Source: Chromobacterium piscinae (lineage in GTDB: Bacteria > Pseudomonadota > Gammaproteobacteria > Burkholderiales > Chromobacteriaceae). From it: 59,044 bases of DNA. Where the stretch lies: assembly GCF_021129175.1 (NCBI RefSeq), contig NZ_JAJOHV010000011.1, forward strand, positions 1 through 59,044, in the 5' to 3' direction. The notes below the pieces were generated by a model. It ran no database searches, had not been told where the DNA came from, and worked only from the letters and a program-made list of their open reading frames with translations. The translations under genes and the position numbers were made by a program. Below, one piece after another: positions 5,067 through 39,268 of the stretch. Every line of letters begins with the position of its first letter. Position 1 is the stretch's first letter.

Positions 5067-5113
5067 CACTAACTTTGCATCCCAATACCTACTGTAGGGA
5101 GGCAAAGTTAGTG
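5067..5113. repeat. Long hairpin at the left edge of the accessory block
   Basis: Perfect 12-bp arms CACTAACTTTGC (5067-5078) and GCAAAGTTAGTG (5102-5113). Inside them TCCC/GGGA can pair after one mismatch, and the centre CCTACTGTAGG is itself a palindrome. An A run follows on the + strand. It lies where GC content drops and is directly preceded by TGT. It may be a transposon end, a small palindromic element or a transcription signal. Confidence 0.7.
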
Positions 5114-25500: not shown

Positions 25501-27806
25501 GCGCATTGTATGGCACGCCGCCTGCGCAGACCTCCGCGCCGATAACGCTGAAGATTACTGCAGCGTTTGGTGGTGGTAGTGACGGAAAGGTTTTGCATTT
25601 GCAAGTGGGGGCTGCTCAGCAGCAGCCGGCTGGCGGCATCGCGTTGCCGTTGCAGCATCTGCGTGCGGGCACTCGCTGGTCGTATATGTTGCCTCCAGGC
25701 CTGTTGTCGCAGAACCGTTCTGCCAGTTATTCCGCCACCTTGCTGGATGGCTCGCCGCTGCCGGCTTGGTTGCAGTTTTCTTCTTGGAGCGGGATTGTCA
25801 GCGGGATGCCGACGGATCAAATGACTGGAAATGTTGCGATCAAGATCAGTACCGGAGGTATGTGGGGAGAGCCGCTGAAGAGCACTGAGTTGGATCTGCA
25901 AATCCGTCCAGTATACCATGCGCCGACTGCATCAACACCGGCCGGTGTGCAAGGCATGATTGCCAATCAGCCGTGGCAGTTTAATGCCGCAGGCCTGTTT
26001 GCAGAGGATATCCCCGGGGATAGCCTGACTTACAAGGCAAGCTTGGCCAATGGTCAAGCGCTGCCGGCCTGGCTGGCGTTGGACCCGGTGTCCGGCAAGC
26101 TATCGGGCACACCCGATGTCCAGGCTGTCGGCGACTTGTCCATCCAATTGACTGCAACCGATCTGGGGGGGCTGGCCGCCGCGACGACCTTGAACTTGCA
26201 TGTATGCCCGCACGGACAGGCACCGGTGCTGGGCAAGCCGCTTGGTCCGCAAACCTTCAAGGCAGGAACCATTGGCAGCTATGTACTGCCGGCCGATCTG
26301 TTCAGCGAGCCGGTTGTCGGAGATACCTTGCGCTACACGGTGACGCTGGAAAATGGCAACCCCCTGCCGGACTGGCTGAGCTTCGCGCCAGAAACCGGTT
26401 CGCTGCGCGCGAGTCCGGGCAATGCCAACGCCGGTACGTTCAATCTCAAAGTGACTGCCACCGATCTTGCTGGGTTGTCGACCAGCACGGCGCTTCCTGT
26501 GGCCGTGGTGTCCGCCTACGCGGTACCCAGAGTCAATTATGGGACGCATGTCATGCTGACACCGGGGGCCGCCTGGTCGTATACATTGCCGTCTGGCATG
26601 TTCAGCTCGGGCGTGGACGGGGATACCCTGAGTTATGGCGTGACCTTGAGCAATGGCGATCCGATACCAGCATGGTTGCATTTCGATCCGGGCCACTTGG
26701 CGCTGAGTGGCACACCGGTCGCGGGCAGCAGCGGCGTTCTCGGCCTGAAGGTGACGGCAACCGATATGGGAGGATTGGCGGCGAGTTCTTCGCTGGATCT
26801 GGTGTTCCAGCCGCATATCGCGACGCCGGATGCGAGCGGCAATCTGCCCAAGGGGAATGACGGCGTGTTTCTGGTCGATTCGTTCCAGTCGGCCACCGGC
26901 GGCGATGAGGACAGAACTGCCGTGGTGAACGGAACATTCGGCAATCTTGTCTTGGGCAACGGCAACAACACCGTGTTCATCGGCGGAGCGATGGGCAAGT
27001 TGACATTGGGGAACGGCAACAACACTGTGGTCGCTCAGCAAGGCAGCAATACCATCACGCTTGGCAACGGCCGCAATACAATTACGACGGAAAGCACCGC
27101 TTCCAGCGTGACGCTGCAGTTGGGGGATGGCAACAATGCCGTTTCGATGGCCGGGTTCTACAATACGGTCAATCTCGGGAAAGGCAATAACACGCTGGAT
27201 TACATTACAGGAGGCGGCACGCTGAATTTCAATGCCTCGGCGACCGCCGACCATCTGTGGTTCAAGCGCATGGGGCAAAATCTCGAAATCGACGTTGTCG
27301 GCTCCGCCGAGCAAGTGACCTTGTTGCATTGGTTCGATTCGGGCCGCTCCGGCGTCTCGATACGATCCGGCGATAACAGGTCTCTGGGCTTTAATAGTGT
27401 CGACAAGCTGGTTCAGGCGATGGCGGCACTTGCGCCTCCGCCGGCTACGGTGACCAGTCTGCCAGCGGATTACCTGAAGACACTAGCGCCGGCACTTTCG
27501 TCCAGCTGGGGATTCGAGGTGGTTCCGGGGAGCGCTGGAACGAGCACGAACAAGCCGCTGACGCCGCCGGGAGGTGTTGATCTGACGGTTACCGGCAAGC
27601 CGCTGACGCCGCCGGGAGGTGTTGATCTGACCGTTACTGGCAAGTCATTGACCCCACCGGGTGGTCACGAGTCCCTGGGTGTTAATGGTGCCGATAAGCT
27701 GGTTCAGGCCATGGCGGCATTTGTGCCTCCACCAGCTACGACGAGTATTTTGGCGTCGAGTTACCAAAAGGCGTCGGCTCCGACTCTTGCATCTAGTTGG
27801 GGGTAA
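16530..27806 (+). CDS. Giant RTX protein: lipase-like, subtilisin-like and cadherin-like repeats
   Basis: 3758 residues, no signal peptide, as expected for type I export. In order: a lipase-like alpha/beta hydrolase domain (about 1-290; nucleophile motif GDSKG with S146); a LysM-like segment (549-592); a DPLVLDLSGKGIG region (708) with two EF-hand-like loops (D798, D820); RTX repeats (934-1120); a cadherin-like stretch; a subtilisin-like S8 domain (about 1288-1600; H1366, N1467, GTSFATP S1550, with E1322 where Asp is usual); a proprotein-convertase P-domain (1645-1772); RTX repeats (1851-1900, 2200-2250); eleven cadherin-like repeats (2337-3427); LGNGNN repeats (3470-3560); an LWFKRMGQNLEIDVVG segment; and a duplicated C-terminal tail. 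Such proteins act outside the cell as toxins, adhesins or exoenzymes. Two enzyme-like domains in one RTX protein is unusual. Catalytic function is inferred, not shown. Confidence 0.88.
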   Translation: MSTRIDLSADKQVLLRAAYTAMDQTYGKTAAGYQLQGIDNSGNGKKLPWDVPPGWVITRSVEDPGQGGKVVIYRNEASNQVMAVAMGTNGNGDMAGWNSNFQDFGMSQWHSQHLDVNGKTLKDNVYEALNKALETPGAQLVCAGDSKGGAIAQFICADIVLERDSYKTRLKNLAAVSNESMAVIANSAPGSEAELSSAYGHFDPQLFAGISSFYSAARMEDHSATEIVSQTGGAYLANTGNTLHYFDQGVGLDSDRIDHNANKWVYLHRLAYSGVDGMEAIGGDFSRLSAAPRDNRNLDDMVMLGGWLSSIGKGDSVTTPEAASRIGASFICGFAAAPLSAGKGALEGRFGWETVAGLGSLGLWASGFGPLLMGACAVPVAGSNAAKFFGDPKLVTSNTDLPTYITMVGAPKDAPAGSQRYFGMTSTGGRYVVDLDDHGSGQMFCEESQERSQLTIQPGRVDISRFDAKTGEALSDGVFQCTPSGATMTHFSPQGPNAPVKLSSVDVLSWNATTLPWAQTQILDGNAANAAGHAPLNANQFAVDATHRDWASISAATGVSVNDLITANPGSSIVTQFPAGQVINLPAADNHLAPSISIHPDPIPQSRTQGEGEAMDLTRQGFIDHSATLSIGFGNGMLNHTDLVSTTAASMASACIRPGEVQNDNNDFTNNAIAKAILAPASMDAWASLNAATIGSQSANCMNQVYIDPLVLDLSGKGIGLTSFQSNPVLFDIDHSGTLKRTGWTDGQTGFLAVANADGKVTDISQMFSQYFGGQAGSNGGVGTAPYANGFAALAAQDSNKDGVIDANDAIWNSLRVWVDANHDGKVGSGEMKSMADLGITRIDLHAQQTHQVIGGNIVTGTATFVMQGQTHVAADVNLVSDPTGNTFESGQGGTTIHSSSTGPNGKREVKTYQDAGSANVTLDAAKLGVDNLYAGSGNDTLIAAAGGSWLVGGGGSNVYQGGAGNDVFVVSAKDDPANIHGGGGTDMLVITGDKGMTINMAQAGVTIAEGGQGDDVIMSGGRNGVYIKGGTGNDMLIGGAGTDVIMGGSGHNTIIGGSGQAIITAGPSGDIIYGAQGDSVINAGGGADTIYGGAGNDVIKVGMGNATIDGGGGTNIVQFHGSYADYRIMPTEDGGYWVADKIPHRDGTVYLKNIQKLNFSDIQAVDLSLPNPMPVADTLRVDQAGKAFDHLQPHLISAAQLLANDQRLRSQGALRIASVGSAQGGTVSLTASGDVLFTPTPGYNGVMGFKYGVGDAAGHGSSVVQDLTSGQTAPMQASVTMLTPELPDDPLLGKEWYLSDADILPVWKDYSGKGVRIAQFEPGGEFAVEPEIFDYRHPDLAPNVDPAWLQTMQSTDAMPKATSNHATMVAGVMVAAKNGQGGVGVAYDATLSGYNLANSGSDLSGLGHMVSYDIANHSWGFKNDFALSNYQDGTIDTAASLVSNAQYAADNGRGGLGTVIVAAGGNARATGGSAQGSLTNNNRFSIEVGAINAKGDLSTLQIGSTPFSNPGASLLVSAPGSNVASTSQMVMTDQGSTFGNAYSTMEGTSFATPIVSGVVALMLQANPHLGYRDVQEILALTARQISDAATSWDQNAASNWNGGGMHVSHDYGFGEVDARAAVRLAESWMTQQTGANEVVYSAASGQLNLVANGGAVIQSALAMQSGLQIEHVEVDLDAAVGRLGDVVVSLVAPNGTRSILLNREGKVPAGFKGASDADVGSTRSGAFRYTFMTTHDWGELSTGNWTLQVSDANGGQPVTLNHWALRLYGQAATADHTFYYTDEYKAQVQANGQRAVLDAAVAAAGGGRNTIDAAAISGDVSINLRTGEANLAGTALAVRSPGAIQNLVSGDGNDTLVAGDADALLDGGRGRNTLVGGAGKDLFVVHRRDQGLDTIANFRPGSGELIDLVGFAGKRFQDLVLTQQGNDVSIDLGAGQHILVQNVQVGSLNAANFVFQDSLTVPASYIQSGASPSQPLPAGSGTIALKGGAAGISLSTSATGQMVASLAGTVYSHDAATSDVFEVQKQDGAKDLSNAVRGFKHGIDKIDLRPLGISNFADLDIALSQRMVINGLAQVHGTMVGSKALGSNGKPLNLVYLDTIDPAQLSADDFIFSPPKPGQAGTVDQPVAPANGIAGNGVQTVTPNRVDATTIVGTSQGIVRTTDEHGRPQIQSAIDMALPEDVDSLRLTGSANIIGMANHHGDTLTANDGNDVLIGGDGDDVLVAGKGRDRLIGGAGHNTYVVSLNGGRVQVEANAGRLDTLSMQGVQADMVQMARQGKDLLLSVRDGQGQFAEVVLQGQGDGRGVGSVVLADRTLSAAALDNLLANGNVQASQPALTSTAKAGETWKFTLPDGLFSATASGDALHYQATLANGASLPDWLKFDPRTRQLTGTPTNQMAGAVALQLTAIDMAGKSAVSTLTVQVQPDYQAPTVGLSLPAQFAAPEKTWQFALPDGLFRENVPGDTLAIKATLANGDPLPSWLSFDEKRGVLSGQPVNQVAGDLVIKLTATDMGGLSASTVLPLHVQPAGGAPQVAHGVPDQTIKAGQPWQYTLPADVFKESIAGDALRYSIGMANGGALPDWLHVDAQSGQLSGTPRNAQAGTLALSVTATDQAGLSSQTTVNLQVTPTYQAPTVSQTLPAQALTSGSAWSWTMPAGLFQESVSGDSLRYSVTMANGDPLPAWLSFDPASGVLAGMPTNQTTGTMALQLVATDMGGLSAGTPLSLNVSPRYQAPDVMHPLPDQTLSAGTAWQFALPTDLFHEAVPGDTLSLRVTLDNGDPLPAWVQFDPISKTLSGLPTDQTTGSLKLKVTASDQGGLSNSAAISVTVNPVYQAPKASKVFDAQDVVVGKQWSYALANQVFTSAVAGDTLSYSVAMRDGSALPGWLKLDPATGVLSGLPAGNSNASLDMVVTASDMAGLKSNMPLSLTLRGDSSLQDADSQPQDQNLQVGTPWSYTLPAGMIKGSWSDRYNVAMADGSPLPSWLTYDSFNGALYGTPPAQTSAPITLKITAAFGGGSDGKVLHLQVGAAQQQPAGGIALPLQHLRAGTRWSYMLPPGLLSQNRSASYSATLLDGSPLPAWLQFSSWSGIVSGMPTDQMTGNVAIKISTGGMWGEPLKSTELDLQIRPVYHAPTASTPAGVQGMIANQPWQFNAAGLFAEDIPGDSLTYKASLANGQALPAWLALDPVSGKLSGTPDVQAVGDLSIQLTATDLGGLAAATTLNLHVCPHGQAPVLGKPLGPQTFKAGTIGSYVLPADLFSEPVVGDTLRYTVTLENGNPLPDWLSFAPETGSLRASPGNANAGTFNLKVTATDLAGLSTSTALPVAVVSAYAVPRVNYGTHVMLTPGAAWSYTLPSGMFSSGVDGDTLSYGVTLSNGDPIPAWLHFDPGHLALSGTPVAGSSGVLGLKVTATDMGGLAASSSLDLVFQPHIATPDASGNLPKGNDGVFLVDSFQSATGGDEDRTAVVNGTFGNLVLGNGNNTVFIGGAMGKLTLGNGNNTVVAQQGSNTITLGNGRNTITTESTASSVTLQLGDGNNAVSMAGFYNTVNLGKGNNTLDYITGGGTLNFNASATADHLWFKRMGQNLEIDVVGSAEQVTLLHWFDSGRSGVSIRSGDNRSLGFNSVDKLVQAMAALAPPPATVTSLPADYLKTLAPALSSSWGFEVVPGSAGTSTNKPLTPPGGVDLTVTGKPLTPPGGVDLTVTGKSLTPPGGHESLGVNGADKLVQAMAAFVPPPATTSILASSYQKASAPTLASSWG
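19329..19890 (+). repeat. RTX calcium-binding nonapeptide repeats, block 1
   Basis: Repeats of the GGxGxDxxx type, for example GGTGNDMLIGGAGTDVIMGG and GGGADTIYGGAGNDVI. They form calcium-binding beta-rolls and drive folding after export. Two shorter blocks follow near 22080-22230 and 23130-23280. Confidence 0.85.
23540..26820 (+). repeat. Eleven tandem cadherin-like (CADG/He_PIG-type) domains
   Basis: About 300 bp per unit. Each unit carries W.(Y/F).(L/M)P.(G/D)(L/V)F near its start, then a GD.L.Y...(L/M)(A/D/E)(N/D)G..(L/I)P.W(L/V) motif, then SG.P....G.......(A/S).D..GL. Units 7 and 8 (about 25330-25910) are shortened and lack the GDxL motif; the remaining nine are close relatives. The array probably forms an extended stalk. 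Confidence 0.85.
27552..27665 (+). repeat. 45-bp tandem repeat near the RTX C-terminus
   Basis: Two nearly perfect units (27552-27596, 27597-27641) encoding KPLTPPGGVDLTVTG and a diverged third (27642-27665, KSLTPPGG). They separate two copies of the terminal tail: LVQAMAALAPPPA...SSSWG (from about 27400) and LVQAMAAFVPPPA...ASSWG (from about 27697). Confidence 0.9.
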
Positions 27807-27859: not shown

Positions 27860-27940
27860 TGCCTCAATGGCGTCCGGCCGATAGCCAATTTTATTGAGCC
27901 GGGTGTTTGGTCTGTCTCGGCCCCCGTGGACAGCGGGTTA

Positions 27941-27988
27941 AGCACTATGGACTGTCCCGGCTCCTGTAGGCATTCCTGTCTTATGATT
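27941..27988 (+). mobile_element. IS3-type end remnant (copy C)
   Basis: AGCACTATGGACTGTCCC, then GGCTCCTGTAGGCATTCCTG and TCTTATGATT. The core is the same as copy B (8661-8710) in the same orientation, and GGACTGTCCC matches copy A. With copy B it brackets the secretion/RTX locus. The gap 27860-28088 holds nothing else that I can identify. Confidence 0.6.
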
Positions 27989-28088
27989 GGACTGCGGAGA
28001 CCTTTTAAGGGTTGCTATTGGGAGCACTTGTACCAGTAGTGCATTTGCATATACTGTGGCTCCATTCTGATCAACTTCGCGTTCACCA

Positions 28089-29480
28089 ATGACTTCATTT
28101 TCGGGATGCCAGACCAGCCTTCTTGCGCGCAGTGCCACTCGTGTATTCGTCATCTCGGACCTTCATCTTGGCGGCGAACCAGCAATGATGAGCCGGCCCG
28201 CATTGCTGGCCGAGTTTATCGATGGTCTACCAGCCCGCTTGGCGGCAGATGAAACCTTGGAGCTGGTCATCAACGGCGACTTTATCGACTTCCTAGCTAT
28301 TGCTCCATTTGCTGCCTTTACCGCAGACTCGGTCGAAGCGGTACGCAAGCTGCGCAGCGTCGTTGATGCCCCATCCTCATTTGCATCGGTCTTTGACGCT
28401 CTGGGGCGTCATGTGGCGGCCCATCATCAGCTTGTTGTCATAGTAGGTAACCATGATCTGGAACTGGCACTGCCGGCAGTTCAGGATGCGTTGCACGATT
28501 GTCTATGCGCGCCTGCAGGAACTTTGCGTTTTGTCGATGACGGACGTGCCTATCGGATCGGTAACGCTCTTGTCGAGCATGGCAACACCTATGACGGTGC
28601 CAACGCCAATGACTGGAATGGCGTGCGTCATCTGGCGTCAGCGCAATCGCGAGGTAGGGAACCGCAGGCCGACGTACAAGTGTCGGCGGGGAGCCAGATC
28701 GTCCACAAGATCGTCAATACGCTCAAGGAGAGATATCCTTTTCTCCCGGTTATCCAGCCGGAGGGTGAGTTGCTTGTGCTCCTGATGCTTCAATTTGAAC
28801 CGGAGCTACGTTCGGATATCAAAAAGATCGCGCAATTGCTCAAGGCTAAAAAGCTTGCAGAGCAGTTGCCCAAGCACGGAAAAACCGCCATCGCGGCAGC
28901 TTGCAGCGAAGATGTGGGGTTGGAAGCGGCACTGCGGGATATATTTAGCGAGGAGTACGCACTGCTGAAGGCAACTAATCAGCCCATCTCCGCATTGGAT
29001 GATTGGATCGACAGCTGGCGTTGCACCAAGAAGACCAGCCTGTCATATATGCTCGAGCATGGTGTCCCCATCCCACTGGATCGCTTAAACAAGATTCGAT
29101 TAGGCATAACCAAGATCGTCGACGCGGACCAGTCCAGCCTCATTTCTGGCGAGACCCAACAGTATGGCGTAGAAGGCGAACGCATGCTCAAGGCGATTCA
29201 GGGGTTGCAGGTGGTCGTCATGGGACACACGCATTTGCCGCGCCAACAAGATTACGGGCAAGGCGTCTACATCAATTCGGGTACGTGGATCGACCGCTTC
29301 ACTGTTCCACCTGAAGTCCTCCAAGACGAGACCTGCAAGGAATTAACTTTATTTCTGCGTAAGTTATTGAGTCCAGGCGGCATCAAGCCAATGCCGCCGA
29401 ATTTCGCCGATCTGTCAGTTGCCGTCGATGGGACCGTGCTGCATGCGGAGTTGCATGTCTACGAAAGTGCGCTGCCGTGA
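28089..29480 (+). CDS. Calcineurin-like metallophosphoesterase, partner of a protease-ATPase
   Basis: 463 residues. The metal-site motifs of the calcineurin-like superfamily are all present: SDLHLGG (D24, H26), GDFID (D64), GNHD (N121, H122), an isolated EHGN (H164) and GHTH (379-382) followed by YINSGTWIDRF. The EHGN and NSGTW features resemble UDP-2,3-diacylglucosamine hydrolase-like and related phosphoesterases, but a helical insert of about 140 residues (roughly 200-340) separates EHGN from GHTH, so LpxH function is unlikely. It probably hydrolyses a phosphodiester; nucleotide or nucleic acid substrates are possible. The stop overlaps the GTG start of the next gene, so the two are translationally coupled. 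No ribosome binding site is obvious before ATG 28089. Composition is below that of the flanks. Confidence 0.85.
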   Translation: MTSFSGCQTSLLARSATRVFVISDLHLGGEPAMMSRPALLAEFIDGLPARLAADETLELVINGDFIDFLAIAPFAAFTADSVEAVRKLRSVVDAPSSFASVFDALGRHVAAHHQLVVIVGNHDLELALPAVQDALHDCLCAPAGTLRFVDDGRAYRIGNALVEHGNTYDGANANDWNGVRHLASAQSRGREPQADVQVSAGSQIVHKIVNTLKERYPFLPVIQPEGELLVLLMLQFEPELRSDIKKIAQLLKAKKLAEQLPKHGKTAIAAACSEDVGLEAALRDIFSEEYALLKATNQPISALDDWIDSWRCTKKTSLSYMLEHGVPIPLDRLNKIRLGITKIVDADQSSLISGETQQYGVEGERMLKAIQGLQVVVMGHTHLPRQQDYGQGVYINSGTWIDRFTVPPEVLQDETCKELTLFLRKLLSPGGIKPMPPNFADLSVAVDGTVLHAELHVYESALP

Positions 29481-32400
29481 ACAGCTACCGGATTGAGACA
29501 AGAAGGACTGATGGCCAGCCGATTAAATGCGGTACGGCCTGGGCCATAGATGACAATCTGATAGTGACCAGTTTCCACGTCGTGGCAGATGGCGCCGAGA
29601 GATGGATGCACGAGAATGCCGGTGCCGGCTACTGGCTCAAATGGGACGACGGACCCGCTGACATTGAGCTTAAGGCCGTTAGTTGCGACAAAGCTGCTGA
29701 TGTTGCCCTGCTCACGCTGTCCCCTGCCGATCGCGATCAAAAGCCAGTCTTGCAAAAATTACCGATTGGCGAATGGGGGGCTGCAGTGGGCTCGGGTTGG
29801 TCGGCTCCAAGCTATCCAACTATCGCCAATGATGCACAAGTTACCCTGACCGGTATCATCAAGGCGGTGCGGCTAGAACCCGGTGCCGATGTCTTTGAAT
29901 TACACCTTGCCGGAGGTGGCTCCATATCTTGGGGCGGCGCATCGGGCAGTCCACTTCATGTGGATGGCCGTGTTGTTGCTATGATTGTGACTGAGCTTCA
30001 GGGCATGTCCACTCTGCACGCAGTCAGTGTGGAACCGGTCCTTTCACTTTCGCTCTTGGCTGAGTCGGCTGCGGTGCAAACGGAGTTTCGCAAGCTTATC
30101 GCGACCTGTTCGGAAGACCAACTAGAGAAGCTTGCAGCCGGTTTACCGGAAATCGACGCTGATGGAGTGCCGTCCTACTCGGCCAATGACATAGCCGACT
30201 ACGGCATAACATACGGTGTACAGGGGATGTTGTCGCTCCTGGAACAATTGCCCAGCACTGAAGAAAAACGGCACTTTGCGCTTGGGTTGGTCACATCGAC
30301 GTTTAAGCGCCAACGTATGGGTTGGCCACTCCAACCTTTGCGCGACGACAGGTGGTGGGTCCGCCATGCCGATGCCGAGGCCCCATCTTCGCTGAAAAAC
30401 GCATGGAAGTTGTTCCTAGGGGCTGAGGACTGGCACGCACAATTGACCATGATGGTGGAAAAGCTGAGGGCAAAGCAGGATACGCTCCCTCTGCAAAATC
30501 GAGCTCTAAAGCAGCGTTTGCGTTGTTTCGACTTGCAGGCCCCGTTCCGACAGTTGTGCGAAGGACTTTCCGTACTAGTTAACGACATCGAGAAAGAAAT
30601 TGATCGCGCCCACTCTCAACAGCACGAAATCGAGCGTGAGGCGATTACTCTCATCCGACAACATATTCAGCCGACAATGCCGAGGGGGCGCTGCTTTTTC
30701 CTCTTGGGCAGCAGCGGATCCGGAAAAACCCACTTTCTGGAAAGGCTGATGACGAGTCCGATGGGGACTGAACTGTGTTTGCAGGTCGCTTGGCCAAAAG
30801 TAATCGACCTAACTGTAGAGTCGCTTGAAGCCGCGATCCTGAGTGCACTGTACCGAGCTACTGAGCGTAGGTTCGCATCTCTTCAACAATTCCAGGAAAC
30901 GCTCGACCGCTACGAAAACGCCCGGAATGCCTATTGCGACGGATATGCTAATGAGCTGTGGGGGCCGGCACCCATGCTTGTGGTCGCCTTTGACAACTTG
31001 CAGGCGGTTCTGCCCGATCCGCAGGTGGCCCGCAACGTATGCGCTGTATTGCAAACCTTGATTGAAAATGCGACTAGCTATCGCTCAGTACGCTGGCTGT
31101 TCACGCTTCAGGATACCTTCTTCGATAGGTTGACGATGCCAGTGGATCAGCCCAGCTTTTGGGAGGAGTATGGATGGATCAATAGCAAATCGTCAGTGCG
31201 AGATGCACCGTTCGCTGACCTAGCCAAGGCCGGATGGGTGGACCTAGACAGAATCTGCGTATGTGACTGCATGGGTCAAGCGATCATGTCGAATGCATTC
31301 GGGGATGGCTGGGACCGGGCGATCACACATGATCGCTGCGAATCAGACATGGGCTTGCGTGAAGGGAAGTTACAGCATTACATGGCAATACCTTGGTTCG
31401 CGTGGATTCTCGTTTCGATGGGCAACCAATGGTGTATCGGCGCAATCCAGTCGGGCGATCTGAATCACATTTGTATCGTCGAAGAGTTGCTTAAGCAGAA
31501 GGTGAGGCCACTGAACGCGTCCGAAGAAGGCCGCCTGCAACTTGAGCGCTACCTAACGGCGACAGCTGCCGCTTTGCTACCTGGGGATGGCAGCGGGCAA
31601 CACAATCAGAAGTTTATTGGAGACGTCTCGGACCGCTTTGCCGAGGCGGGCGTGACATTCGTTGCTGATCAACTGCAATGGGCGCTCGACCTACTGATTA
31701 AGTCGAATTTGCTACTTGAACAGAAAGATGTATTACAGACTTTGCTGATGGTTGAGTTCGTCATGCTGTGGGGATACGAAGGTGCAAAATATTTGCGGCA
31801 TATCCTGCAGGGAAGGGATAGTACCTCGATCTCCGAGCGCTTGCGCGCCGATCTTGCCAGTGCTGAAGAAGACCGGTTGATGTTAAAGGAGAGCGTGCTC
31901 GAGTTCTTGCTGATGCTTGCAGATCAAGAAGGCGCAACCAGTTTGATCGACCGCATTCTTGCATTGAACTCACATGAACTTGGAGAAAGTGCTGCAGCGA
32001 TTCTTTTTGCTGCGCCAAAGCTTGGGAACAGTACTCAGCAACGCTTGAGCCGTTTCGATGTGCAACCCGCCACGGCAGAGGGAGTGGTGAAAGGCCGCCG
32101 ATTACTGTTGGCGAAGATGATGTTCGCCGAGTGGGCCAATTCGTCTGCGTTCACGCCAGCGGAGCGCCTCGACTTTGTGCGTACACAATACCAGAATATC
32201 CGAATGTCTGGATTTGCTAGTTATTACCGTACCGTGGCCTTCGGAATTCTAAGCGAAGTGACAAGCATTGATGAACTACGGGCCTGCCTGTTATCCCTCA
32301 ATGGCTGTGAGCAGTCTGGATTGGCAGAGCCGCTGGCAAGGCGCGCTGTGGAACTGCTGTTTGAGTTTGCTGGACAGGAGGAGGACGGGGCCGATCCTAT

Positions 32401-33031
32401 GCATGTAGTTATCGAGACAATCGTGCGCTATACGACCGACAGCATTGGCTGTGCCAAGGACGATTACTTGCGGAGACAGGCTCCTCGAAGCGATGTGGGG
32501 GTACGAGGGGAGCCGCGCAAGGCGGCAGGAAGCTCATGGAAACGGGAGTTCTTTCGTGAATGGGTTTTGCATCATGCCTGTACCCAGTTAGTCAATGAGT
32601 TGAAGCCTGTGTCAGCCTTCCAGGCCTTCTATAGCAAAAATTGGTTTCAGGTTGGCGGAAAAGGTGATTTGCATATCGAGATGGAAAGAGAAGCAACCCT
32701 TGCCATCGGGCATTATTTTCATGGAACGCAGCACTTAGCGGGGACTTGGAGGCAGGGAAAGGGCAAGGAATTCTTTGATCTGGTGCATGCCCTTGCCTGT
32801 TCCAGCGACAAAGACAAGCGACTGCTTGCCTTCAACCTAATGTTGCATACTAAGCCGACCGGCGGTGATTATGATCAAGGCATTAGTGCCGAATTCATCC
32901 CCATACTAGAAAGGTTAGCCTACGATAGCAAGCTAGCAGGAATGAAGCGTTTTCAGGGCCTGTATAAAAGTACTACTGTGCGGCGAGCTAACGCCACAAG
33001 TGGAAAAGATGGTAAGAGGCGGCTCAGGTGA
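29477..33031 (+). CDS. Trypsin-like protease fused to a STAND-like P-loop ATPase
   Basis: 1184 residues from GTG 29477, overlapping the phosphoesterase stop by four bases. Residues about 1-190 form a chymotrypsin-like protease with a plausible triad: H34 (VTSFHVV), D75 (AADVALL) and S156 (GGASGSPL). After a linker of about 200 residues comes an AAA/STAND-type nucleotide-binding domain with Walker A GSSGSGKT (411-418) and Walker B PMLVVAFDN (D506). The last 500-600 residues are helical and contain no motif I know, the usual place of a ligand sensor in STAND proteins. The plan of protease, switch ATPase and sensor matches AVAST-like antiphage proteins, where target recognition activates the effector. 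The pairing with a metallophosphoesterase and the location beside a Tn7-like transposon support a defence role, which remains inference. Confidence 0.85.
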   Translation: MNSYRIETRRTDGQPIKCGTAWAIDDNLIVTSFHVVADGAERWMHENAGAGYWLKWDDGPADIELKAVSCDKAADVALLTLSPADRDQKPVLQKLPIGEWGAAVGSGWSAPSYPTIANDAQVTLTGIIKAVRLEPGADVFELHLAGGGSISWGGASGSPLHVDGRVVAMIVTELQGMSTLHAVSVEPVLSLSLLAESAAVQTEFRKLIATCSEDQLEKLAAGLPEIDADGVPSYSANDIADYGITYGVQGMLSLLEQLPSTEEKRHFALGLVTSTFKRQRMGWPLQPLRDDRWWVRHADAEAPSSLKNAWKLFLGAEDWHAQLTMMVEKLRAKQDTLPLQNRALKQRLRCFDLQAPFRQLCEGLSVLVNDIEKEIDRAHSQQHEIEREAITLIRQHIQPTMPRGRCFFLLGSSGSGKTHFLERLMTSPMGTELCLQVAWPKVIDLTVESLEAAILSALYRATERRFASLQQFQETLDRYENARNAYCDGYANELWGPAPMLVVAFDNLQAVLPDPQVARNVCAVLQTLIENATSYRSVRWLFTLQDTFFDRLTMPVDQPSFWEEYGWINSKSSVRDAPFADLAKAGWVDLDRICVCDCMGQAIMSNAFGDGWDRAITHDRCESDMGLREGKLQHYMAIPWFAWILVSMGNQWCIGAIQSGDLNHICIVEELLKQKVRPLNASEEGRLQLERYLTATAAALLPGDGSGQHNQKFIGDVSDRFAEAGVTFVADQLQWALDLLIKSNLLLEQKDVLQTLLMVEFVMLWGYEGAKYLRHILQGRDSTSISERLRADLASAEEDRLMLKESVLEFLLMLADQEGATSLIDRILALNSHELGESAAAILFAAPKLGNSTQQRLSRFDVQPATAEGVVKGRRLLLAKMMFAEWANSSAFTPAERLDFVRTQYQNIRMSGFASYYRTVAFGILSEVTSIDELRACLLSLNGCEQSGLAEPLARRAVELLFEFAGQEEDGADPMHVVIETIVRYTTDSIGCAKDDYLRRQAPRSDVGVRGEPRKAAGSSWKREFFREWVLHHACTQLVNELKPVSAFQAFYSKNWFQVGGKGDLHIEMEREATLAIGHYFHGTQHLAGTWRQGKGKEFFDLVHALACSSDKDKRLLAFNLMLHTKPTGGDYDQGISAEFIPILERLAYDSKLAGMKRFQGLYKSTTVRRANATSGKDGKRRLR

Positions 33032-33227: not shown

Positions 33228-35075
33228 TCAAGTCAGGCTGGCTGCTACATCCGCGCGCCAAAACACATACTCGTCCCCGCAATTCTCCATTGGCCCATAG
33301 AGGGGACATAGTCCTTGTTTAACCAAGTGTCTGGCGGCCTGTCGCACCGGTTTGTCGACCATTTCCGCCAAGCGTTCGCCCCAGATGTAGTCGTTGGTCA
33401 GTCGTTCCAGCTCTTTGGCCTCCAGACCCAACAACATCCGCTTCTCATAGCCATACTGCTGTTGGCTGGCGTGGGCATGTCCGGCGCCAATCAGGTGATA
33501 GAGCAAGTTGACGTCCATCTGGATGGCGGCTGCCGCCTCCCTGACCGTGAAGAAGCCGCGGGAGCGGCGGTATTGCTCATGCCAGAGCGTGAATTGCTGT
33601 CGGGAAACCAGCAGCGCGCGGAGGCCATGGTCGGCCGGGGTGCGGCCTACAACCTCCAGGGAACCATCTTGCAGGGCGCGGATCACCGCCAAGAAGGGCT
33701 GGCTGCCTTGCATCCACCGCTTAGTGATTTCCCACACTGACAGCAGTTCTGGATTGTTCGGTTCTGGGCTGATCCGGCCATGGTTCAACTGCTCCAGGAA
33801 GGCGTTGATGGTTTCCAACTGAAAGCACCATCGAGTACGTTTCTTATCGTGGGGCAGGTGTTGCAGCAAACCACTTTCGATCAGCAAACGGATCCGTTTT
33901 GGGGTGATGCGCAGCATGCGTTCCACCTCCGAAATGGTCAGCGTGCCGTGCTCACTACGGGTGTAGGCATCCAGCGAGCTACGTTCTACCAGCCAAATGG
34001 TTTTCCCTTTAGCCGATGAGGATTGGCAGCCTTTGAGCGTGCCGCTTTCGATCAGCTTGTGTACGGCGCCTCTTGAGAGATTGAGTTGTTCCGCTGCTTT
34101 GGCCAGGCTGATGATGGGATGGGCATGTCGCAGGTCCTGCTGCAGGATCAGTTTGTCCGGCCAGCGTTCATGGACATAACGCTCGAATTCTGCCCGTACA
34201 AATAGCAACTCTGGATAGATCAGCAGCCGGTATAGGGCCTGATGCATTTCCCGCAAGTACACCCGCAGCGATGCCGTGTTGCCGGAAATGGGTAGTGTGT
34301 ATTCCTCCAGTAGTTGATGGAAGCGTTGCGGCCAGTGCTGGGTAATCTGCATGGCCAACTGCAGATAGGGCTGAATGATTTCGATTCGGCCATGATCGGC
34401 TATTTTTTGCGGCCGGGTATTGGGTCGGTGCGAGGCATAGGCGCCAAAGAACCAGAGCAGGTCGCATAGTTGTACCGGGTATAGATGATCTAATTCCGGT
34501 GGCGTGGGAATGTTGCTGACGGAGAGGTAGGGCAGGCCGACCAGCGGCCGGATAGTCTGGGTAATCAGTTTGGCGAGTGCCAGCTCGGAAGCGGTGCCTG
34601 GGCGTGTGGCGGCATGGCGCAAGTCGGCGCCGCAGCTGCAAGTAAACATGGTGCCTTGATGCCAGCGGATGAGTTTGTCGCAGCCGGGGCATTTTTCTCG
34701 CAGCAGCAGGCGATGAATCGGGCAGGCTATTTGCAGGGTCAGCAGCCACTCCGTTTGCCAGATGCCGTGTTCAGCCAGGCAGACGGGGCACCAGCGGCGA
34801 TGATGGTGATTCCAGTACGTCACCTTGAGACCGAGCCGATGGTAGCTATGACGGCCCAGGCTGGCCGGCGCCGGGCCTGTCAGGCAAGCCAGGCTAGTCT
34901 GATCGTGGCCTGTTAGCCGGGTTAGATTCTGCCCGGCGGAGTCGTGCTTTTTGACGAATAACGGTAGCCAAGTCTGTCCGGGGTAGCCGTTGGCGTGTCC
35001 CAGACGTAGGCAATAGCCCAGCAGACTTTCACCCGCCTGCGGCTTGGGGCGGATCTGCAGTAGTGGGGAGGTCAT
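33228..35075 (-). CDS. tniQ: TniQ/TnsD-family target-selection protein with three HTH motifs
   Basis: 615 residues, long for a TniQ. The N-terminus has the family signature (LLQIRPKPQAGESLLGYCLR), followed by zinc-binding Cys/His pairs: CPVC (96-99), a CPIH pair near 118-121, CPGC (129-132) and CSCG (146-149). The C-terminal half carries three excisionase/MerR-like helix-turn-helix motifs at about 322-348 (LAKAAEQLNLSRGAVHKLIE), 378-404 (ISEVERMLRITPKRIRLLIE) and 509-533 (FTVREAAAAIQMDVNLLYHL). In Tn7-like elements this protein binds the attachment site or a guide complex and recruits TnsC. Several DNA-binding units suggest direct recognition of an extended site. No CRISPR genes are in the window. 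It starts 44 bp after tnsC. Confidence 0.88.
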   Translation of the reverse strand: MTSPLLQIRPKPQAGESLLGYCLRLGHANGYPGQTWLPLFVKKHDSAGQNLTRLTGHDQTSLACLTGPAPASLGRHSYHRLGLKVTYWNHHHRRWCPVCLAEHGIWQTEWLLTLQIACPIHRLLLREKCPGCDKLIRWHQGTMFTCSCGADLRHAATRPGTASELALAKLITQTIRPLVGLPYLSVSNIPTPPELDHLYPVQLCDLLWFFGAYASHRPNTRPQKIADHGRIEIIQPYLQLAMQITQHWPQRFHQLLEEYTLPISGNTASLRVYLREMHQALYRLLIYPELLFVRAEFERYVHERWPDKLILQQDLRHAHPIISLAKAAEQLNLSRGAVHKLIESGTLKGCQSSSAKGKTIWLVERSSLDAYTRSEHGTLTISEVERMLRITPKRIRLLIESGLLQHLPHDKKRTRWCFQLETINAFLEQLNHGRISPEPNNPELLSVWEITKRWMQGSQPFLAVIRALQDGSLEVVGRTPADHGLRALLVSRQQFTLWHEQYRRSRGFFTVREAAAAIQMDVNLLYHLIGAGHAHASQQQYGYEKRMLLGLEAKELERLTNDYIWGERLAEMVDKPVRQAARHLVKQGLCPLYGPMENCGDEYVFWRADVAASLT

Positions 35076-35119: not shown

Positions 35120-36100
35120 TTACAACGCGGGGATGGCGGCTTTTGGAGCATTCCTCCGGGAGAACCGTGTCGGCTCGAATGGCTCGTCAGGCTGATTCAG
35201 GCGTCGGAATACAAAGTTGGCATCGAAGGGATTCAGCTCAGGCGGGCTGTCTCGCCAGATATAGTTGGAGAAAGCCATAGCCAAGACGCTTTGGTCGAGA
35301 TCTTGCTGCTCCTGTTCGATCAAACATTCCAATGCCCCCAGAATTACCTTGGAGAGATAGCTGAGCAGGCCATTGCTGGCATAGTGCAGGCGTCTGACGC
35401 AGTCCCACTCGGCGAGTCCCCAGATTGGACGCCCCTGATTGATCTGCGTGTCCCAGGCATGGACAACGTCGCGGAACAAGGACTTGTCCTCGTTGCAGGA
35501 GAAACCGATCGGCGTCAGCGCCACGCGGGCGGCGAAGCGACGGCGCAACTGCTCGTTGGAGCGCAGGATCCACTCGCACTCTGGCAGGCCGGACAGTACC
35601 GTGGGAATGGCGATCTGATCGATCAGGATCTTCAGCCACTCGGTGACCTCCTCGAAGGTTCTACGGCCGGCGTCGACGAAGTGATGGAACTCATCCAGCA
35701 GCAAGGCTTCGGTTTTACCGCCGCGGATTAGCTGCACGATCTGATTGGTCTTCTCCGCGGTGCTGCCCCGGAGCTGAACGCCGGCCCCTAGCGCGATCAG
35801 AATGGCCTCTGCCAAACCGCGGATGGTGGGGTGGGCGGGCACTTGGACATACACCACCGGGCGTATCGTCGCCTCCTCCGTTTCGTAGCTGGGGTGCTGT
35901 TTGGCAAAGCTGAGCAGCACAGAGGTCTTGCCTGTACCGGATGCGCCAACCAGCAGCAGATGCCTGGCCGCGGCGCCTTGGCGCGACAGGGTATGGCTGT
36001 GCGACAGCCTTTCCAGCGCCGTGCTGAATTGTGGATGCAGGATCTGGATCCGCTCCGCGCGTCGAAGATCTGCCAGCGTATAACGCTCACTCATGGCCAT
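35120..36100 (-). CDS. tnsC: TnsC/TniB-type AAA+ transposition regulator
   Basis: 326 residues as drawn. The second ATG (36094) is the likelier start because GGAAGGAG sits six bases before it, giving MSERYTLADL. AAA+ features: Walker A VGASGTGKTS (about 51-60), Walker B ALLLDEFHHF (D136, E137), sensor-1-like VLSGLPEC, and arginine-rich RRRFAARVAL. Members polymerise on DNA with ATP, link TniQ-marked targets to the transposase and enforce target immunity. The length and the LLLDEFHHF motif are closer to TniB than to the large TnsC of Tn7. It overlaps the tnsB stop by 14 bp, consistent with one transcript. Confidence 0.9.
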   Translation of the reverse strand: MAMSERYTLADLRRAERIQILHPQFSTALERLSHSHTLSRQGAAARHLLLVGASGTGKTSVLLSFAKQHPSYETEEATIRPVVYVQVPAHPTIRGLAEAILIALGAGVQLRGSTAEKTNQIVQLIRGGKTEALLLDEFHHFVDAGRRTFEEVTEWLKILIDQIAIPTVLSGLPECEWILRSNEQLRRRFAARVALTPIGFSCNEDKSLFRDVVHAWDTQINQGRPIWGLAEWDCVRRLHYASNGLLSYLSKVILGALECLIEQEQQDLDQSVLAMAFSNYIWRDSPPELNPFDANFVFRRLNQPDEPFEPTRFSRRNAPKAAIPAL

Positions 36101-37916
36101 CTCCTTCCGGAGCGTGCGTGAGCACAGGCAACGTACTGGGCGGTGACCAGCTGTCTGTCGGGGGGAGTTCTGCGTCCTCTGAAATCGCAGGAGGCCGCTT
36201 GCCAGTGGTCATCACCTTGCTTGAGTGCGCGCCTTTGGCTCGCGCGGCGCGTTTGCGGTCGGCCAGTTTACGGCTTTGCAGCAATTGGCCGATCACCTCT
36301 TGCATACGTACTTTGGCCCGAGCCAGCGATAGCGGATCGGCGGATGCCAGGCCTTCTTTGTGTAGCGCCGCCTGAATCAGCTTGTGCTGGTGCAGTTGCA
36401 GTCCTTCGGCATAGTCCGGGGTGAGGCAGGGCACGGGCATGGCTTCTTTGGTCTGCGGGTGGAGGGCGAATATCGAACCCAGATTGTCCGGGTCGAAGCG
36501 GACCTGCACTTTTATGCGGTCGCCGAGCTGTTTGCGCCAAGGGAGCAGATCTTTGCAGTTGTAGCGCAAGCCATGCAGCTCAATGCCGGCATGGCCCAGT
36601 ACCCGTTCAGCCTGCTTGGAGAGCACCAACCGCAAGCGCTCGGGGTCGATGGTGCGAGGCGTGACAATTTCTGCCGCGCGCTGCCATGCGGCATACGGCG
36701 TCTGCTTCAGGCCTCGATGGTACGTCTGGGAGTAGATGTCGATGATCCAGATGTGCAGGGCGTGGACCAGCTCCGACAAGGTGACGATGGACTCCTTCAA
36801 TGGGTCATAGCCGTAGCGGTCGAACCAGTTGGCAAAGCTGGTGCCCGGCAACTGGTGGGCGAACTGTTCCGCCAGCGTTCGCAGCGATCGCTCGACCATG
36901 GGTTTGAACCAGGGCGTGCGGGGCGGGCAGAACTGATAGTTGAGGCCCAGTTCGAAAGTGGCGCGCAGCAGGTCCTGGGAGTGAAACTCCAATCCATTGT
37001 CGACGACAGCGGTGGTGGGAATGCCATGGCATGGCCAGTCATGCTGGATGTCGGGGTACCGCTCTTTCACATAGTCTTTGTTGCCGATGGCGTGCTGCAA
37101 GCAACGCAGCACCGCCTCGATGCTGGGTGGCGAGAACGACAAGTAGAAGCCCAGGATCATGCGCGTGTGGCAATCGATGATCACCGTGATGTACGGACGC
37201 CCCAGCACCAGCATCGACTCCTCATCGATGACGAAGATGTTGAACGGCGTATGGTCAATTTCGACGCGTTCCAGCAGATACATCGTGGTGGGTGTGATGC
37301 TGCTATGCCGGTACTTTTTGCGGGTGTACTCGCGTCCGTAGCGGGCAAGATCGACTTCATAGCAGGGAAGCGAGCGGATATAGCGCCGTACTGTCGCATA
37401 TGAGGGTGGCGCGATGAGGCTCTCGTCTGCTCGTTGAGAGTTTTCATAGGCGATTGAGCTTAATAGGGCTTCATAAGTTGAAGAAATCGACTTCCGTTGC
37501 AAGCTAAGGAAAGTCTGGTCGACAGCTTTCTCCAGCAACACTAGCTGTTCTGCTTGGAGTCGCTGGCCGCCGCCGCCGCGGGCATGAAATTTAGGGATGA
37601 GCGCACGCAGATCATGACCGCTGGTCACAAAGCTCTTGTGCCAGCGATAGATGGATATGGCCGATGGTGGAGACACATCCCCGATCCTTGTCGCAACCCG
37701 TTGGGCTAACTCCTTCAGCATGTCCTGCGTTTGACGAACTGGGTGCTGTGCTGCAAGCGCATCGATGTAGGCACGGCGTCGTAGTGCCTCTTGCTGAGCA
37801 CCTGCAGGATACGATTCAAAAGTTCGCCCCAATTGCGGTGGAGTGTCGAGAGATGCAGGGACGAGTTGTCCCGCAAGATTCAGGCTGGTGGCTTGATCGA
37901 GAGTAGCCATGCTCAT
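36087..37916 (-). CDS. tnsB: TnsB/TniA-type DDE transposase
   Basis: 609 residues; ATG 37916 overlaps the tnsA stop (ATGA), but ATG 37910 is better placed after AGGAGGG (eight bases). The N-terminal 200 residues hold helical DNA-binding domains, then the RNase-H-like core with D221 (VEIDHTPF), D306 (AVVDNGLEF) and E342 (KPMVERSLRTL). A beta-barrel of the Mu C-terminal type follows (LGHAGIELHGLRYNCKDL), and the tail is basic then acidic (residues about 545-609), where family members contact TnsC. It cuts and joins the 3' ends of the transposon. The core residues are intact, so the module may be active. Confidence 0.92.
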   Translation of the reverse strand: MSMATLDQATSLNLAGQLVPASLDTPPQLGRTFESYPAGAQQEALRRRAYIDALAAQHPVRQTQDMLKELAQRVATRIGDVSPPSAISIYRWHKSFVTSGHDLRALIPKFHARGGGGQRLQAEQLVLLEKAVDQTFLSLQRKSISSTYEALLSSIAYENSQRADESLIAPPSYATVRRYIRSLPCYEVDLARYGREYTRKKYRHSSITPTTMYLLERVEIDHTPFNIFVIDEESMLVLGRPYITVIIDCHTRMILGFYLSFSPPSIEAVLRCLQHAIGNKDYVKERYPDIQHDWPCHGIPTTAVVDNGLEFHSQDLLRATFELGLNYQFCPPRTPWFKPMVERSLRTLAEQFAHQLPGTSFANWFDRYGYDPLKESIVTLSELVHALHIWIIDIYSQTYHRGLKQTPYAAWQRAAEIVTPRTIDPERLRLVLSKQAERVLGHAGIELHGLRYNCKDLLPWRKQLGDRIKVQVRFDPDNLGSIFALHPQTKEAMPVPCLTPDYAEGLQLHQHKLIQAALHKEGLASADPLSLARAKVRMQEVIGQLLQSRKLADRKRAARAKGAHSSKVMTTGKRPPAISEDAELPPTDSWSPPSTLPVLTHAPEGDGHE

Positions 37917-38581
37917 ACCCTCCTGATCTTGGTTTCGTTAGTCAGTGGGCGGCGTAGGTCTATGGCAAGAATACCTTGCCCGATGGCTGCTAGGACGAGA
38001 TTTTGGCAGCCTATGCTATCGGTAAGCTGTCCCAGGAGTTGATCGCCGTGACGCAGGCTGCTCAAGATCTTGCTGATGATGTCAGTCGATAGCTGAAGGT
38101 GCTTGTGGCTTTCTATCAACGACATGTTCTTCTGTAAGACTGGAGCACGTAGCTGTCTTTCAGTTAGAACGGCGAACATGGCGTTGGCACGTGCCATCTG
38201 CTTGCCGATGACGTCGAAGCGGCGTTGGTTTGCTGGCTGATCTGCCTCTGCCTGCCATCTGACTTCATTAACAGCACGACGCCCGTCGCGCAGAAACAAC
38301 AAGTAGTCAGGGGTGTAGTTTCGGATCAACCCATCCATTTCATAATGAAAAGTGAACGGTTCCGGGACGATCATGGTCACTTCAGGGGCAAGTTCAAATG
38401 TTCGAAGAGCATCTCTGGCGAGTCCTGATTCGAAAGGGATAGCTCCTGCGAAAGCCTTTGTTGACTGGAAGAAGCCACGATATGAACATCCGTGCCGATG
38501 AACTACATCGCGAGCAGGGGTAGTGGAGTTCAATAGCTCTCTGAGTATTGAAATGGATACTTCTTTGTTGGTATGCGACAT
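37913..38581 (-). CDS. tnsA: TnsA-type endonuclease
   Basis: 222 residues, start supported by AGGAG seven bases upstream. It carries the TnsA N-terminal nuclease pattern: FESGLARDAL (E51), then YTPDYLLFLRDGRRAVNEVRW, with D92 and E106. The catalytic Lys expected two residues after the Gln/Glu position is Arg here (R108), a change worth noting because that Lys is catalytic in Tn7 TnsA. The C-terminal part matches the TnsC-interacting region only loosely. TnsA cuts the 5' ends so that the element moves by cut-and-paste instead of forming cointegrates. It is the first gene of the transposition operon. Confidence 0.88.
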   Translation of the reverse strand: MSHTNKEVSISILRELLNSTTPARDVVHRHGCSYRGFFQSTKAFAGAIPFESGLARDALRTFELAPEVTMIVPEPFTFHYEMDGLIRNYTPDYLLFLRDGRRAVNEVRWQAEADQPANQRRFDVIGKQMARANAMFAVLTERQLRAPVLQKNMSLIESHKHLQLSTDIISKILSSLRHGDQLLGQLTDSIGCQNLVLAAIGQGILAIDLRRPLTNETKIRRV

Positions 38582-39268
38582 GACAAGCTCCTGCCTCAGC
38601 TTGAGAAAGGCGCGTGGGTGCCTCTCAAAAGTCGAGTTCTAGAAAAAAGGCGTATAGGGAGCTTGACCAGTGGAGGGGACTTAACGATACTGGCTTTGTG
38701 AGAGTTGTACCGTGTAGTCACCTACACTAGCAAGCGGGGCACTTCTGAAAAGGGGTGTCCTGTTTTGTTATCTGCGCTTGGTTCTCCTTCCTCTGCTCTT
38801 CTTTACAATGTTCTGCAGCCCCAAGTGTGGGGTTGGCATGGCATGTATCTCTTTGTTCAGTAGATGAACGTTGCCATCTTTCAGATTAGTCAAAAGATGT
38901 CATGACTTCTACATCGTATTAGCTAGCTATGTGATTTGCAAATTGGCAAGGCGGTTTTGAAAAATGGCTCATCAAAATGGTAGGTTTTGATAGGTCGATA
39001 TTATATATTTTGACTTAAAAAACCCAAATGGCATGCTTGAATTTTTATTAAAATCATGCGCTTTCAGCATTGTTGTTTTTCTACAATAATTAAATTGGCT
39101 GCAATTGGCGTGTGTTGGCCATATTTAAAAAAATAATGGCGACTGGAAGGATTTTAGAAGGGAAATAAGCAAGGGCATAACCAGTAAAGGTTATGCCCTA
39201 TGTTGGTGCAATTTCAACTATGTGCACAAAGTTTTCAATAACTCTGAAAACCTACACCTACCATGAGC
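38582..39268. other. AT-rich non-coding region beyond tnsA, likely transposon end
   Basis: 687 bp with no gene. The tnsA promoter and, by analogy with Tn7, the transposon end with TnsB-binding repeats should be here. Read on the minus strand, CTTTTCAGAAGTGCCCCGC (38757 to 38739) and CTTTTGAGAGGCACCCACGC (38636 to 38616) are similar and could be such repeats. ATCAAAA/TTTTGAT (38971-38991) is a small palindrome. From 38880 to 39170 the sequence is very AT-rich. GC content rises sharply at about 39260. Confidence 0.55.
39171..39198 (-). terminator. Probable msrB terminator
   Basis: Perfect 11-bp stem AGGGCATAACC / GGTTATGCCCT with a 6-nt loop. On the minus strand it is followed by TTGCTTATTT. 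It lies 71 bp beyond the msrB stop. Confidence 0.65.

Follow-up and report, generated by a model that had tools for sequence, protein, structure and literature searches.

A calcineurin-fold phosphoesterase paired with a trypsin-like protease: a candidate protease-gated defense system on a Tn7-like transposon of Chromobacterium piscinae

The 59,044-nucleotide stretch of Chromobacterium piscinae contig NZ_JAJOHV010000011.1 analyzed here (the window) contains a Tn7-like transposon whose cargo includes two adjacent genes, encoding the calcineurin-fold phosphoesterase MPE and a second protein, P2, that joins a trypsin-like protease to a P-loop ATPase. The pair lies on this mobile element in a slot where sibling elements carry known or candidate defense systems; protease genes are conserved neighbors within the MPE family, and the insert of these phosphoesterases holds short sequence codes that differ with the class of the partner protease. 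On the strength of the defense slot, the protease coupling, the cut code, a parallel with metallo-β-lactamase (MBL)-fold nucleases and a low-confidence stretch in the model of MPE, we consider it probable that MPE–P2 is a Tn7-borne two-gene anti-phage system in which MPE would be a gated pro-effector and the P2 protease its activator. An initial annotation of the same DNA had cast the phosphoesterase as a second effector or regulator; it seems rather to be the main effector and to serve as the protease's substrate. The principal features are:

28089–29480, forward strand: MPE, 463 aa from an ATG start, a calcineurin-fold phosphoesterase and predicted gated pro-effector
29477–33031, forward strand: P2, 1184 aa from a GTG start, a trypsin-like protease with a P-loop ATPase and a long C-terminal region (predicted to act as sensor and activator)
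29477–30061, forward strand: trypsin-like domain of P2, residues 1–195 (H34, D75, S156; Pfam PF13365)
30707–30730, forward strand: Walker A of P2, residues 411–418 (GSSGSGKT P-loop)

The two open reading frames (ORFs) share 4 bp on the same strand, as the initial annotation had described. Calcineurin-like metallophosphoesterases are marked by the metal motifs D-x-H, GD, GNHD, H and GHTH. MPE matches Pfam Metallophos (PF00149; 1.8e-7, above the curated cut-off), and its residues D24, H26, D64, N121, H164, H380 and H382, which we take to be the metal ligands expected in the calcineurin-like superfamily, are unchanged in all 39 rows of alignment A2. Judged by its sequence, MPE carries these metal motifs, including H164 (in HGN), which had been overlooked when the others were first picked out. 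The predicted structure (mean predicted local distance difference test score, pLDDT, 87.3; predicted template modeling score 0.89) is weak only at residues 261–310 and the termini. A Foldseek comparison, suggested earlier as a check, returned calcineurin-like superfamily members (PolD DP1 exonuclease, GpdQ and LpxH) among its best matches, together with a phosphopantetheinyl hydrolase and purple acid phosphatase; Mre11 and SbcD rank lower. TM-scores normalized by query were all low, about 0.3 or less, which we attribute to the unmatched insert. Against sequences of solved structures, the MPE profile gave weak matches only, the best (7e-4) to argininosuccinate lyase within the helical insert, with PolD DP1 at 1.5e-3.

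P2 has the protease residues H34, D75 and S156, Walker A at 411–418 and D506 just where they had been placed before. Its N-terminal part matches Pfam Trypsin_2 (PF13365; 3e-7, residues 19–169) and the PADLOC models HamA1 (8.7e-9), Avs1b (2.4e-7) and RT-Protease (2.3e-5), the remainder of the protein being unmatched by PADLOC. The P-loop region matches Pfam AAA_16 (2.6e-6) and NACHT (0.0034), both below curated cut-offs; of the earlier description as a STAND-like ATPase, the P-loop residues stand, whereas STAND membership is unproven. The suggested kinship with AVAST does not extend past the trypsin part, which alone meets the Avs1b and HamA1 models, and the partner is calcineurin-fold rather than MBL-fold. 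Against solved-structure sequences P2 found nothing better than HTRA1 (E 0.33 or more). Two partly overlapping genome searches (61 and 369 genomes) gave no full-length relative, just short matches to trypsin or P-loop regions, none better than E 2.9e-4; among the 61, P2 is present solely in its own genome, and plasmids and viral contigs likewise held no relative. The C-terminal 989 residues match none of 15 trypsin-type partners compared, and relatives of this region were not found in the genomes, plasmids and viral contigs searched.

The pairing of MPE with a protease is conserved. When the GTDB genome collection was scanned with the MPE profile, 152 relatives emerged; the analysis continued with the best 80, so that the partner count favors close relatives. 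Four of these loci end at a contig edge, and in 66 of the 76 testable loci, spread over several phyla, a protease gene lies directly downstream. The 66 comprise 48 partners of one CHAT family, a different CHAT protein at L007 (so counted by Pfam) and 17 trypsin-like proteins. No adjacent protease was seen in nine of the 76 (L013, L069 and seven of the most distant group), and at L022 a trypsin-like ORF lies farther downstream, not adjoining MPE. An initial tally of 84 loci (51 CHAT, 15 trypsin, 18 none) was revised by removing four plasmid loci (L002–L005, all CHAT) and by reassigning L012 and L019 to trypsin and L072 to CHAT, where the partner ORFs open before the MPE stop. In L052 the MPE is missing the first metal-motif His, and some other MPEs are partial; their neighbors were counted and the proteins excluded from the insert test described below. 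Of 65 loci scored, 54 have the partner start codon between −10 and +25 bp relative to the MPE stop, and CHAT (PF12770) was confirmed in the partners scanned, four of the main family and the other CHAT.

In the trypsin partners that were scanned, the protease is joined to WD40 plus nSTAND1, to NACHT, or to regions that Pfam does not recognize; the sensor type thus varies while MPE stays. In the tree, the CHAT-linked MPEs form a single clade. Among the best 80 of 152, the MPE closest to that of the window belongs to L006, a locus of a Myxococcales metagenome-assembled genome (support 100/99); its partner has a trypsin and no P-loop that we could find. A PADLOC scan covered four MPE relatives and five partners. 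The protease parts of the window, L006, L014 and L026 partners match HamA1, Avs1b, LmuA or RT-protease models, and two CHAT partners partially match SAVED_CHAT; because the PADLOC library holds defense proteins only and the generic Trypsin_2 survey comes without a tree, we make no claim that these proteases descend from the lineage of Avs1b and HamA. When 398 genomes of the phylum were searched without selection, seven had the MPE family, the window's own genome among them (six of 397 others). By these sequence counts the family appears rare, with protease coupling strong in its core and unproven at its edge.

Several relatives have features of their own. In Nannocystis (L007, 9289–10331, forward strand), the MPE gene is followed by the different CHAT protein, which has a small ORF in another frame ahead of it, and a CHAT-like ORF, recognized by eye, lies on the opposite strand beside it. 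The Bacteroidetes MPE of L013 (5042–6442, forward strand), with no downstream protease gene found, has GGI-EE at the first candidate cut site introduced below and no clear second site. Near the MPE–trypsin-WD40 pair of L014 is a second protein (1613–3046, reverse strand) with a calcineurin-like SDVHFG motif, again by eye. The Corallococcus MPE-like proteins (L074, L077, L081–L084) have no adjacent protease that we saw, and in the two loci examined closely a 489-aa gene lies directly upstream. A phage origin of MPE was considered and rejected, viral contigs having given merely seven distant matches (25–35% over short parts).

Turning to how a protease might act on MPE, attention falls on the insert, the features of which are:

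28764–29207, forward strand: insert of MPE, residues 226–373, between the HGN-KPE part and GHTH, variable in length and sequence in alignment A2
28869–29018, forward strand: low-confidence stretch of the insert, residues 261–310 (block pLDDT 56–70), holding both candidate cut sites
28890–28892, forward strand: candidate cut site 1, Ile268 (TAI-AAA), in the same column as the Ile of GDI-SA in relatives
28986–28988, forward strand: candidate cut site 2, Ile300 (QPI-SAL), within two columns of the relatives' second GDI-AS and sharing its letters with Avs1a NPI-SAK

Residues 261–310 are the sole poorly modeled internal stretch of MPE, and they carry both Ile-[Ser/Ala]-Ala candidate sites. In a MAFFT alignment that predates the cut-site idea, the column of Ile268 holds the Ile or Leu of GDISA, GDITA and GDLSA in relatives. 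All 15 filled trypsin-class rows have an aliphatic residue in this column, and 21 of 22 CHAT-class rows have Leu, preceded mostly by an aromatic residue or Leu/Met. The motifs were also counted independently of any alignment. Near-copies were dropped beforehand (one of 16 trypsin rows and four of 48 CHAT rows, the 48 including three plasmid loci), and the trypsin loci L017, L022 and L052 were excluded. The pattern I[SA][AS] occurs 18 times in the 15 non-redundant trypsin-class inserts (shuffled mean 2.5), at least once in nine of them (shuffled 2.3) and at least twice in six, the window's included (shuffled 0.18), and it stands at chance level in 44 CHAT-class inserts (5 versus 4.7 shuffled). 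The pattern [FYWM]L[GS] leans the other way: 32 of 44 CHAT-class inserts have it (shuffled 5.3), as do 4 of 15 of the trypsin class (shuffled 1.5). The letters of caspase-linked MBL proteins, [LF]GA, give a weak signal (14 of 44 CHAT-class inserts, shuffled 6.3; 5 of 15 trypsin-class inserts, 2.8). At the level of sequence motifs, then, the insert carries partner-class-specific codes, I[SA][AS] for the trypsin class and a different one for the CHAT class.

These codes bear on an alternative in which the protease kills and MPE plays a regulatory part by removing a nucleotide messenger or activating nucleotide, making the pair a set-point device. Studies of conflict systems class calcineurin-like domains as nucleotide-processing effectors or phosphodiesterases (PMC7159879, PMC8195603); work on diversity-generating retroelements describes a single locus in which a NACHT sensor with a calcineurin-like phosphodiesterase domain stands beside a trypsin-VMAP protein (PMC10907252); and Foldseek also matches MPE to phosphodiesterases such as GpdQ. 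Such a regulator does not predict protease-class-specific motifs in the MPE insert or a constant MPE with a changing protease type, and no nucleotide cyclase was named among the window ORFs scanned. We regard it as unlikely.

A precedent for the proposed gating exists in another fold. Hachiman and AVAST encode their MBL-fold nucleases as pro-enzymes; each nuclease has two insertions, and the trypsin domain carried by its partner protein cuts it at conserved isoleucines (Tuck et al. 2025, PMC12799240). Such gated nuclease–protease pairs include HamM–HamA/B of Hachiman and Avs1a–Avs1b of AVAST I and occur also in Lamassu and DRT. HamM is reported to be cut after an Ile and EpiAvs1a beside its Ile134; Canu is a caspase–nuclease version (PMC12799240). 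We aligned 11 MBL proteins, 10 chosen among 46 matching plasmid records and one taken from a sibling of the transposon (L146). Four Avs1a proteins read NPI-SAK, NPI-SAK, KAI-SAR and DEI-SAR at site 1 and TI-SAS, TI-SAG, LI-SAG and LI-SAG at site 2, so that I-S-A is present at both sites in all four; site 1 is Ile134 in L146, the same number as in the published Avs1a, with which it is equated by number and letters only. In a HamM-like protein (L194), partnered by a protein with a trypsin of the Avs1b type, the two sites are PI-GYS and QI-SAT. In three MBL proteins with partners not verified as trypsins, site 1 is SEI-SVK, SNT-SIG and SEI-SFK, and site 2 lacks I-S-A. Site 1 is LGA and FGA in two proteins linked to caspases and FGV in one linked to a subtilase. 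Viral contigs held no Avs1a relatives.

By sequence, the unrelated MBL fold thus has the letters of MPE's candidate cut sites, the same protease class and the same gene order. In both, the hydrolase gene lies upstream, the downstream trypsin is N-terminal to another protein, two Ile-Ser/Ala-type sites fall in insertion regions of the hydrolase, and the contexts are those of defense; the remainder of P2 is presumably defense-associated as well. The differences are that the effector there is MBL-fold and here calcineurin-fold (by Pfam, model and Foldseek), that the C-terminal part of P2 is unrelated, and that cleavage in MPE is predicted from sequence. Canu and the CHAT-linked majority of MPEs are alike in combining a caspase-family protease with a hydrolase that has its own gate sites (predicted ones in MPEs); in Canu, however, the MBL nuclease is downstream with Ig-like/TPR proteins, whereas here CHAT lies downstream of a calcineurin-fold enzyme. 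The trypsin and MPE could also be two independent effectors of one sensor, with no proteolytic activation. Multi-effector systems are described (Kaur et al. 2020, PMC7159879) and the 4-bp gene overlap suggests co-expression; set against these are the duplicated class-specific sites in the least ordered part of MPE and the parallel to MBL–trypsin pairs that work by cleavage (PMC12799240), which leave this explanation improbable.

The genomic setting is a transposon absent from the initial annotation, with the following features:

5088–5092: left copy of the target-site duplication CCTAC
5093–39256: Tn7-like transposon, 34,164 bp with TGT...ACA ends, directly downstream of msrB
33228–35075, reverse strand: tniQ, tnsD-like target selector (Pfam TniQ 3.5e-15)
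35120–36100, reverse strand: tniB/tnsC ATPase (Pfam TniB 2.8e-35)
36087–37916, reverse strand: tnsB-like DDE transposase (Pfam Mu-transpos_C 3.1e-10, rve 2.6e-8)
37913–38581, reverse strand: tnsA-like endonuclease (NCBIfam TnsA_like 6.9e-19, Pfam 4.2e-4, both below cut-off)
39257–39261: right copy of the target-site duplication CCTAC
39269–39658, reverse strand: msrB, the chromosomal gene beside the insertion site (NCBIfam TIGR00357 1.4e-52)

Tn7-like transposons have TGT...ACA ends and make a 5-bp target duplication. The element shows both, together with genes for TnsA, TnsB, TnsC and TniQ; the transposition genes sit to the right of P2 and convergent to it, and MPE–P2 is the cargo adjoining tniQ. 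The limits of 5093 and 39256 were set because CCTACTGT, the duplication plus the TGT end, has its single forward-strand occurrence in the window at 5088, and because the right end (...CCTACA) is fixed by a 95.6% identical transposition module in a genome of the same genus (G012), the match ending at window position 39257. Left-flank homology in relatives ends at 3300 (G012) and 4966 (G015). At the msrB site of G012, window positions 3300 and 39173 are separated by 431 bp with an element-end remnant between, and 1.8 kb of the left flank is missing there as well; this remnant with its Tn7-like end corresponds to 11920–12351 of L119. A 17-mer scan found no repeat common to both transposon ends, so the evidence for where the element ends consists of the duplication, the TGT/ACA termini, the second copy and the breaks in homology.

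TniQ relatives occur in 34 of 101 genomes. As sibling elements we took the eight best TniQ matches after the window's own, minus one split over contigs (identities 97, 94, 92, 91, 89, 54, 50 and 37%), and in seven of the eight the tniQ-side slot holds a known or candidate PADLOC defense system. These are a complete Druantia I (DruA–DruE); DrmA and DrmB with a C5 methyltransferase and a NERD helicase; a restriction–modification-like pair of a C5 methyltransferase and a type II restriction-like protein; GajA, in G014, behind a 1452-aa protein; the candidate system PDC-M54A/B; Avs1a and Avs1b (AVAST I), in G022, in the same slot as MPE–P2; and IetS, with an IetA-like neighbor below cut-off. Three of these loci call for comment. 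The 1452-aa protein of G014 (L143, 746–5104, reverse strand) adjoins tniQ, shows a P-loop on inspection by eye, matches nothing in Pfam or PADLOC, and is a candidate defense gene; so is an 894-aa HSDR_N/AAA_22/S1 protein, without a PADLOC match, in the eighth slot (G436; L145, 13317–16001, forward strand). The avs1b of G022 is apparently frame-broken in its trypsin part (L146, 14858–15690, reverse strand). Tn7-like elements are known to carry many defense systems (PMC8649781); a word search of that text found no mention of phosphoesterase or trypsin. The slot shared with known and candidate defense systems supports the original suggestion of a defense role on a mobile element.

The rest of the cargo is of another kind. 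Between 8846 and 27806 the transposon encodes an outer-membrane efflux protein, a C39-type ABC exporter and an HlyD-like protein (a type I secretion operon), two similar proteins of 397 and 407 aa that match nothing in Pfam, and an RTX/subtilase protein of 3758 aa containing He_PIG repeats. A coding tandem repeat at the C-terminus of this giant protein (27551–27665) has a G014 counterpart (L109, 2342–2816) that recurs many times in 45-bp steps, and between the giant gene and MPE (27903–27995) is a short dispersed repeat of about 40–90 bp with many copies in genomes of the genus. The secretion operon and giant protein indicate that not all cargo is defense, and LpxH is among the structural matches of MPE (TM-score by target 0.56, E 1.5e-3); MPE–P2 might accordingly be housekeeping or adaptive cargo, for example an LpxH-like lipid or sugar-nucleotide hydrolase with a quality-control protease. 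The tniQ-side slot, the patchy distribution of P2 and of the MPE family, and the low G+C of the pair (0.54–0.55, versus 0.71 and 0.65 in the flanks) all speak against such a role, which we judge very improbable.

Returning to the gated pro-effector, a plausible sequence of events can be outlined. The C-terminal P-loop part of P2 would sense infection, probably changing its oligomeric state, and this would free or cluster, and thus switch on, the N-terminal trypsin-like protease. The protease may then cut MPE after Ile268 and/or Ile300, sites suggested by conservation and by the known MBL sites. MPE would be kept inactive by its insert until removal or opening of the insert exposes the di-metal site, whereupon the active enzyme could destroy a cellular phosphodiester substrate, so that the cell dies or stops growing. 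DNA is our first guess for this substrate, rated likeliest because of the MBL analogy and the PolD DP1 match, with nucleotides and phospholipid head groups as alternatives. Most of the MPE family would be the same pro-effector coupled to a CHAT (caspase-fold) protease, with a different code at the first site.

A number of observations weigh against this proposal. Four other insert columns are as aliphatic as site 1, so conservation at that site alone proves little; six of the 15 trypsin-class inserts lack I[SA][AS], L008 lacking even an I/L/V version, and the stricter pattern [GQE][DEQ][IL][ASHT][ASG] is absent from the window's MPE. The motif patterns were framed after the MPE alignment had been seen, and the I-S-A letters were noticed at the MBL sites before the I[SA][AS] count, yet after those of the MPEs. 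Since the CHAT-linked MPEs are one clade, the partner-linked change of code amounts to one evolutionary event. The MBL sites lie in two insertions, whereas those of MPE lie in one insert between HGN and GHTH, which only presumably covers the active site. The seven-of-eight slot count reflects chosen ORFs per sibling, without a background PADLOC rate elsewhere. Of the six other matches in the unselected search, two have CHAT, two are cut by a contig end and two are distant and lack a protease. Finally, because P2 has no relatives, its role rests solely on its protease and P-loop.

As to novelty, no PADLOC-DB system matches both whole proteins, and four MPE relatives scanned are likewise unmatched. 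AVAST type I was considered as an identity for the pair and rejected: MPE has no PADLOC match at E up to 1 and is calcineurin-like by Pfam and fold, not an MBL Avs1a, and P2 covers just positions 19–180 of the 1924 in the Avs1b profile, which spans trypsin plus STAND. Phosphoesterase, calcineurin and CHAT are not mentioned in the main text, supplement aside, of Tuck et al. 2025 (PMC12799240), and literature searches outside subscription journals, bioRxiv and supplements did not find an MPE plus trypsin/CHAT pair. Calcineurin, trypsin and caspase domains are described as alternative effectors (Kaur et al. 2020, PMC7159879; 2021, PMC8195603). The STAND, EAD and ternary conflict systems share this domain vocabulary (calcineurin-like, trypsin, caspase, STAND/NACHT), but in them the domains mostly act as alternative effectors joined to other parts, and the passages on these systems do not describe the two-gene pair. 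LpxH, GpdQ, PolD DP1 and Mre11–SbcD have the calcineurin-like fold and di-metal motifs of MPE; unlike the proposal for MPE, activation by a partner protease is not reported for them in the sources compared.

Protease-gated immune effectors are already known; what would be new here is the enzyme fold and the orphan sensor of P2. With a protease neighbor in most testable loci and a partner-specific code in a variable insert, the MPE family may extend the picture of Tuck et al. to another fold. We lean, by a little, towards the broader view that calcineurin-fold pro-phosphoesterases are a second class of protease-gated immune effector, unrelated in fold to the MBL pro-nucleases and using the same protease codes, with the proteases as general plugs. 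If so, the codes would be I-S/A for trypsin partners and, more loosely, Leu-Gly/Ser for caspase-fold partners, and any toxic hydrolase with such a code in a gating loop could be connected to any sensor. P2 would be an example of such a connection in which the sensor has not been seen before, and the proteases of bacterial immunity would be interchangeable activators of unrelated toxic enzymes.

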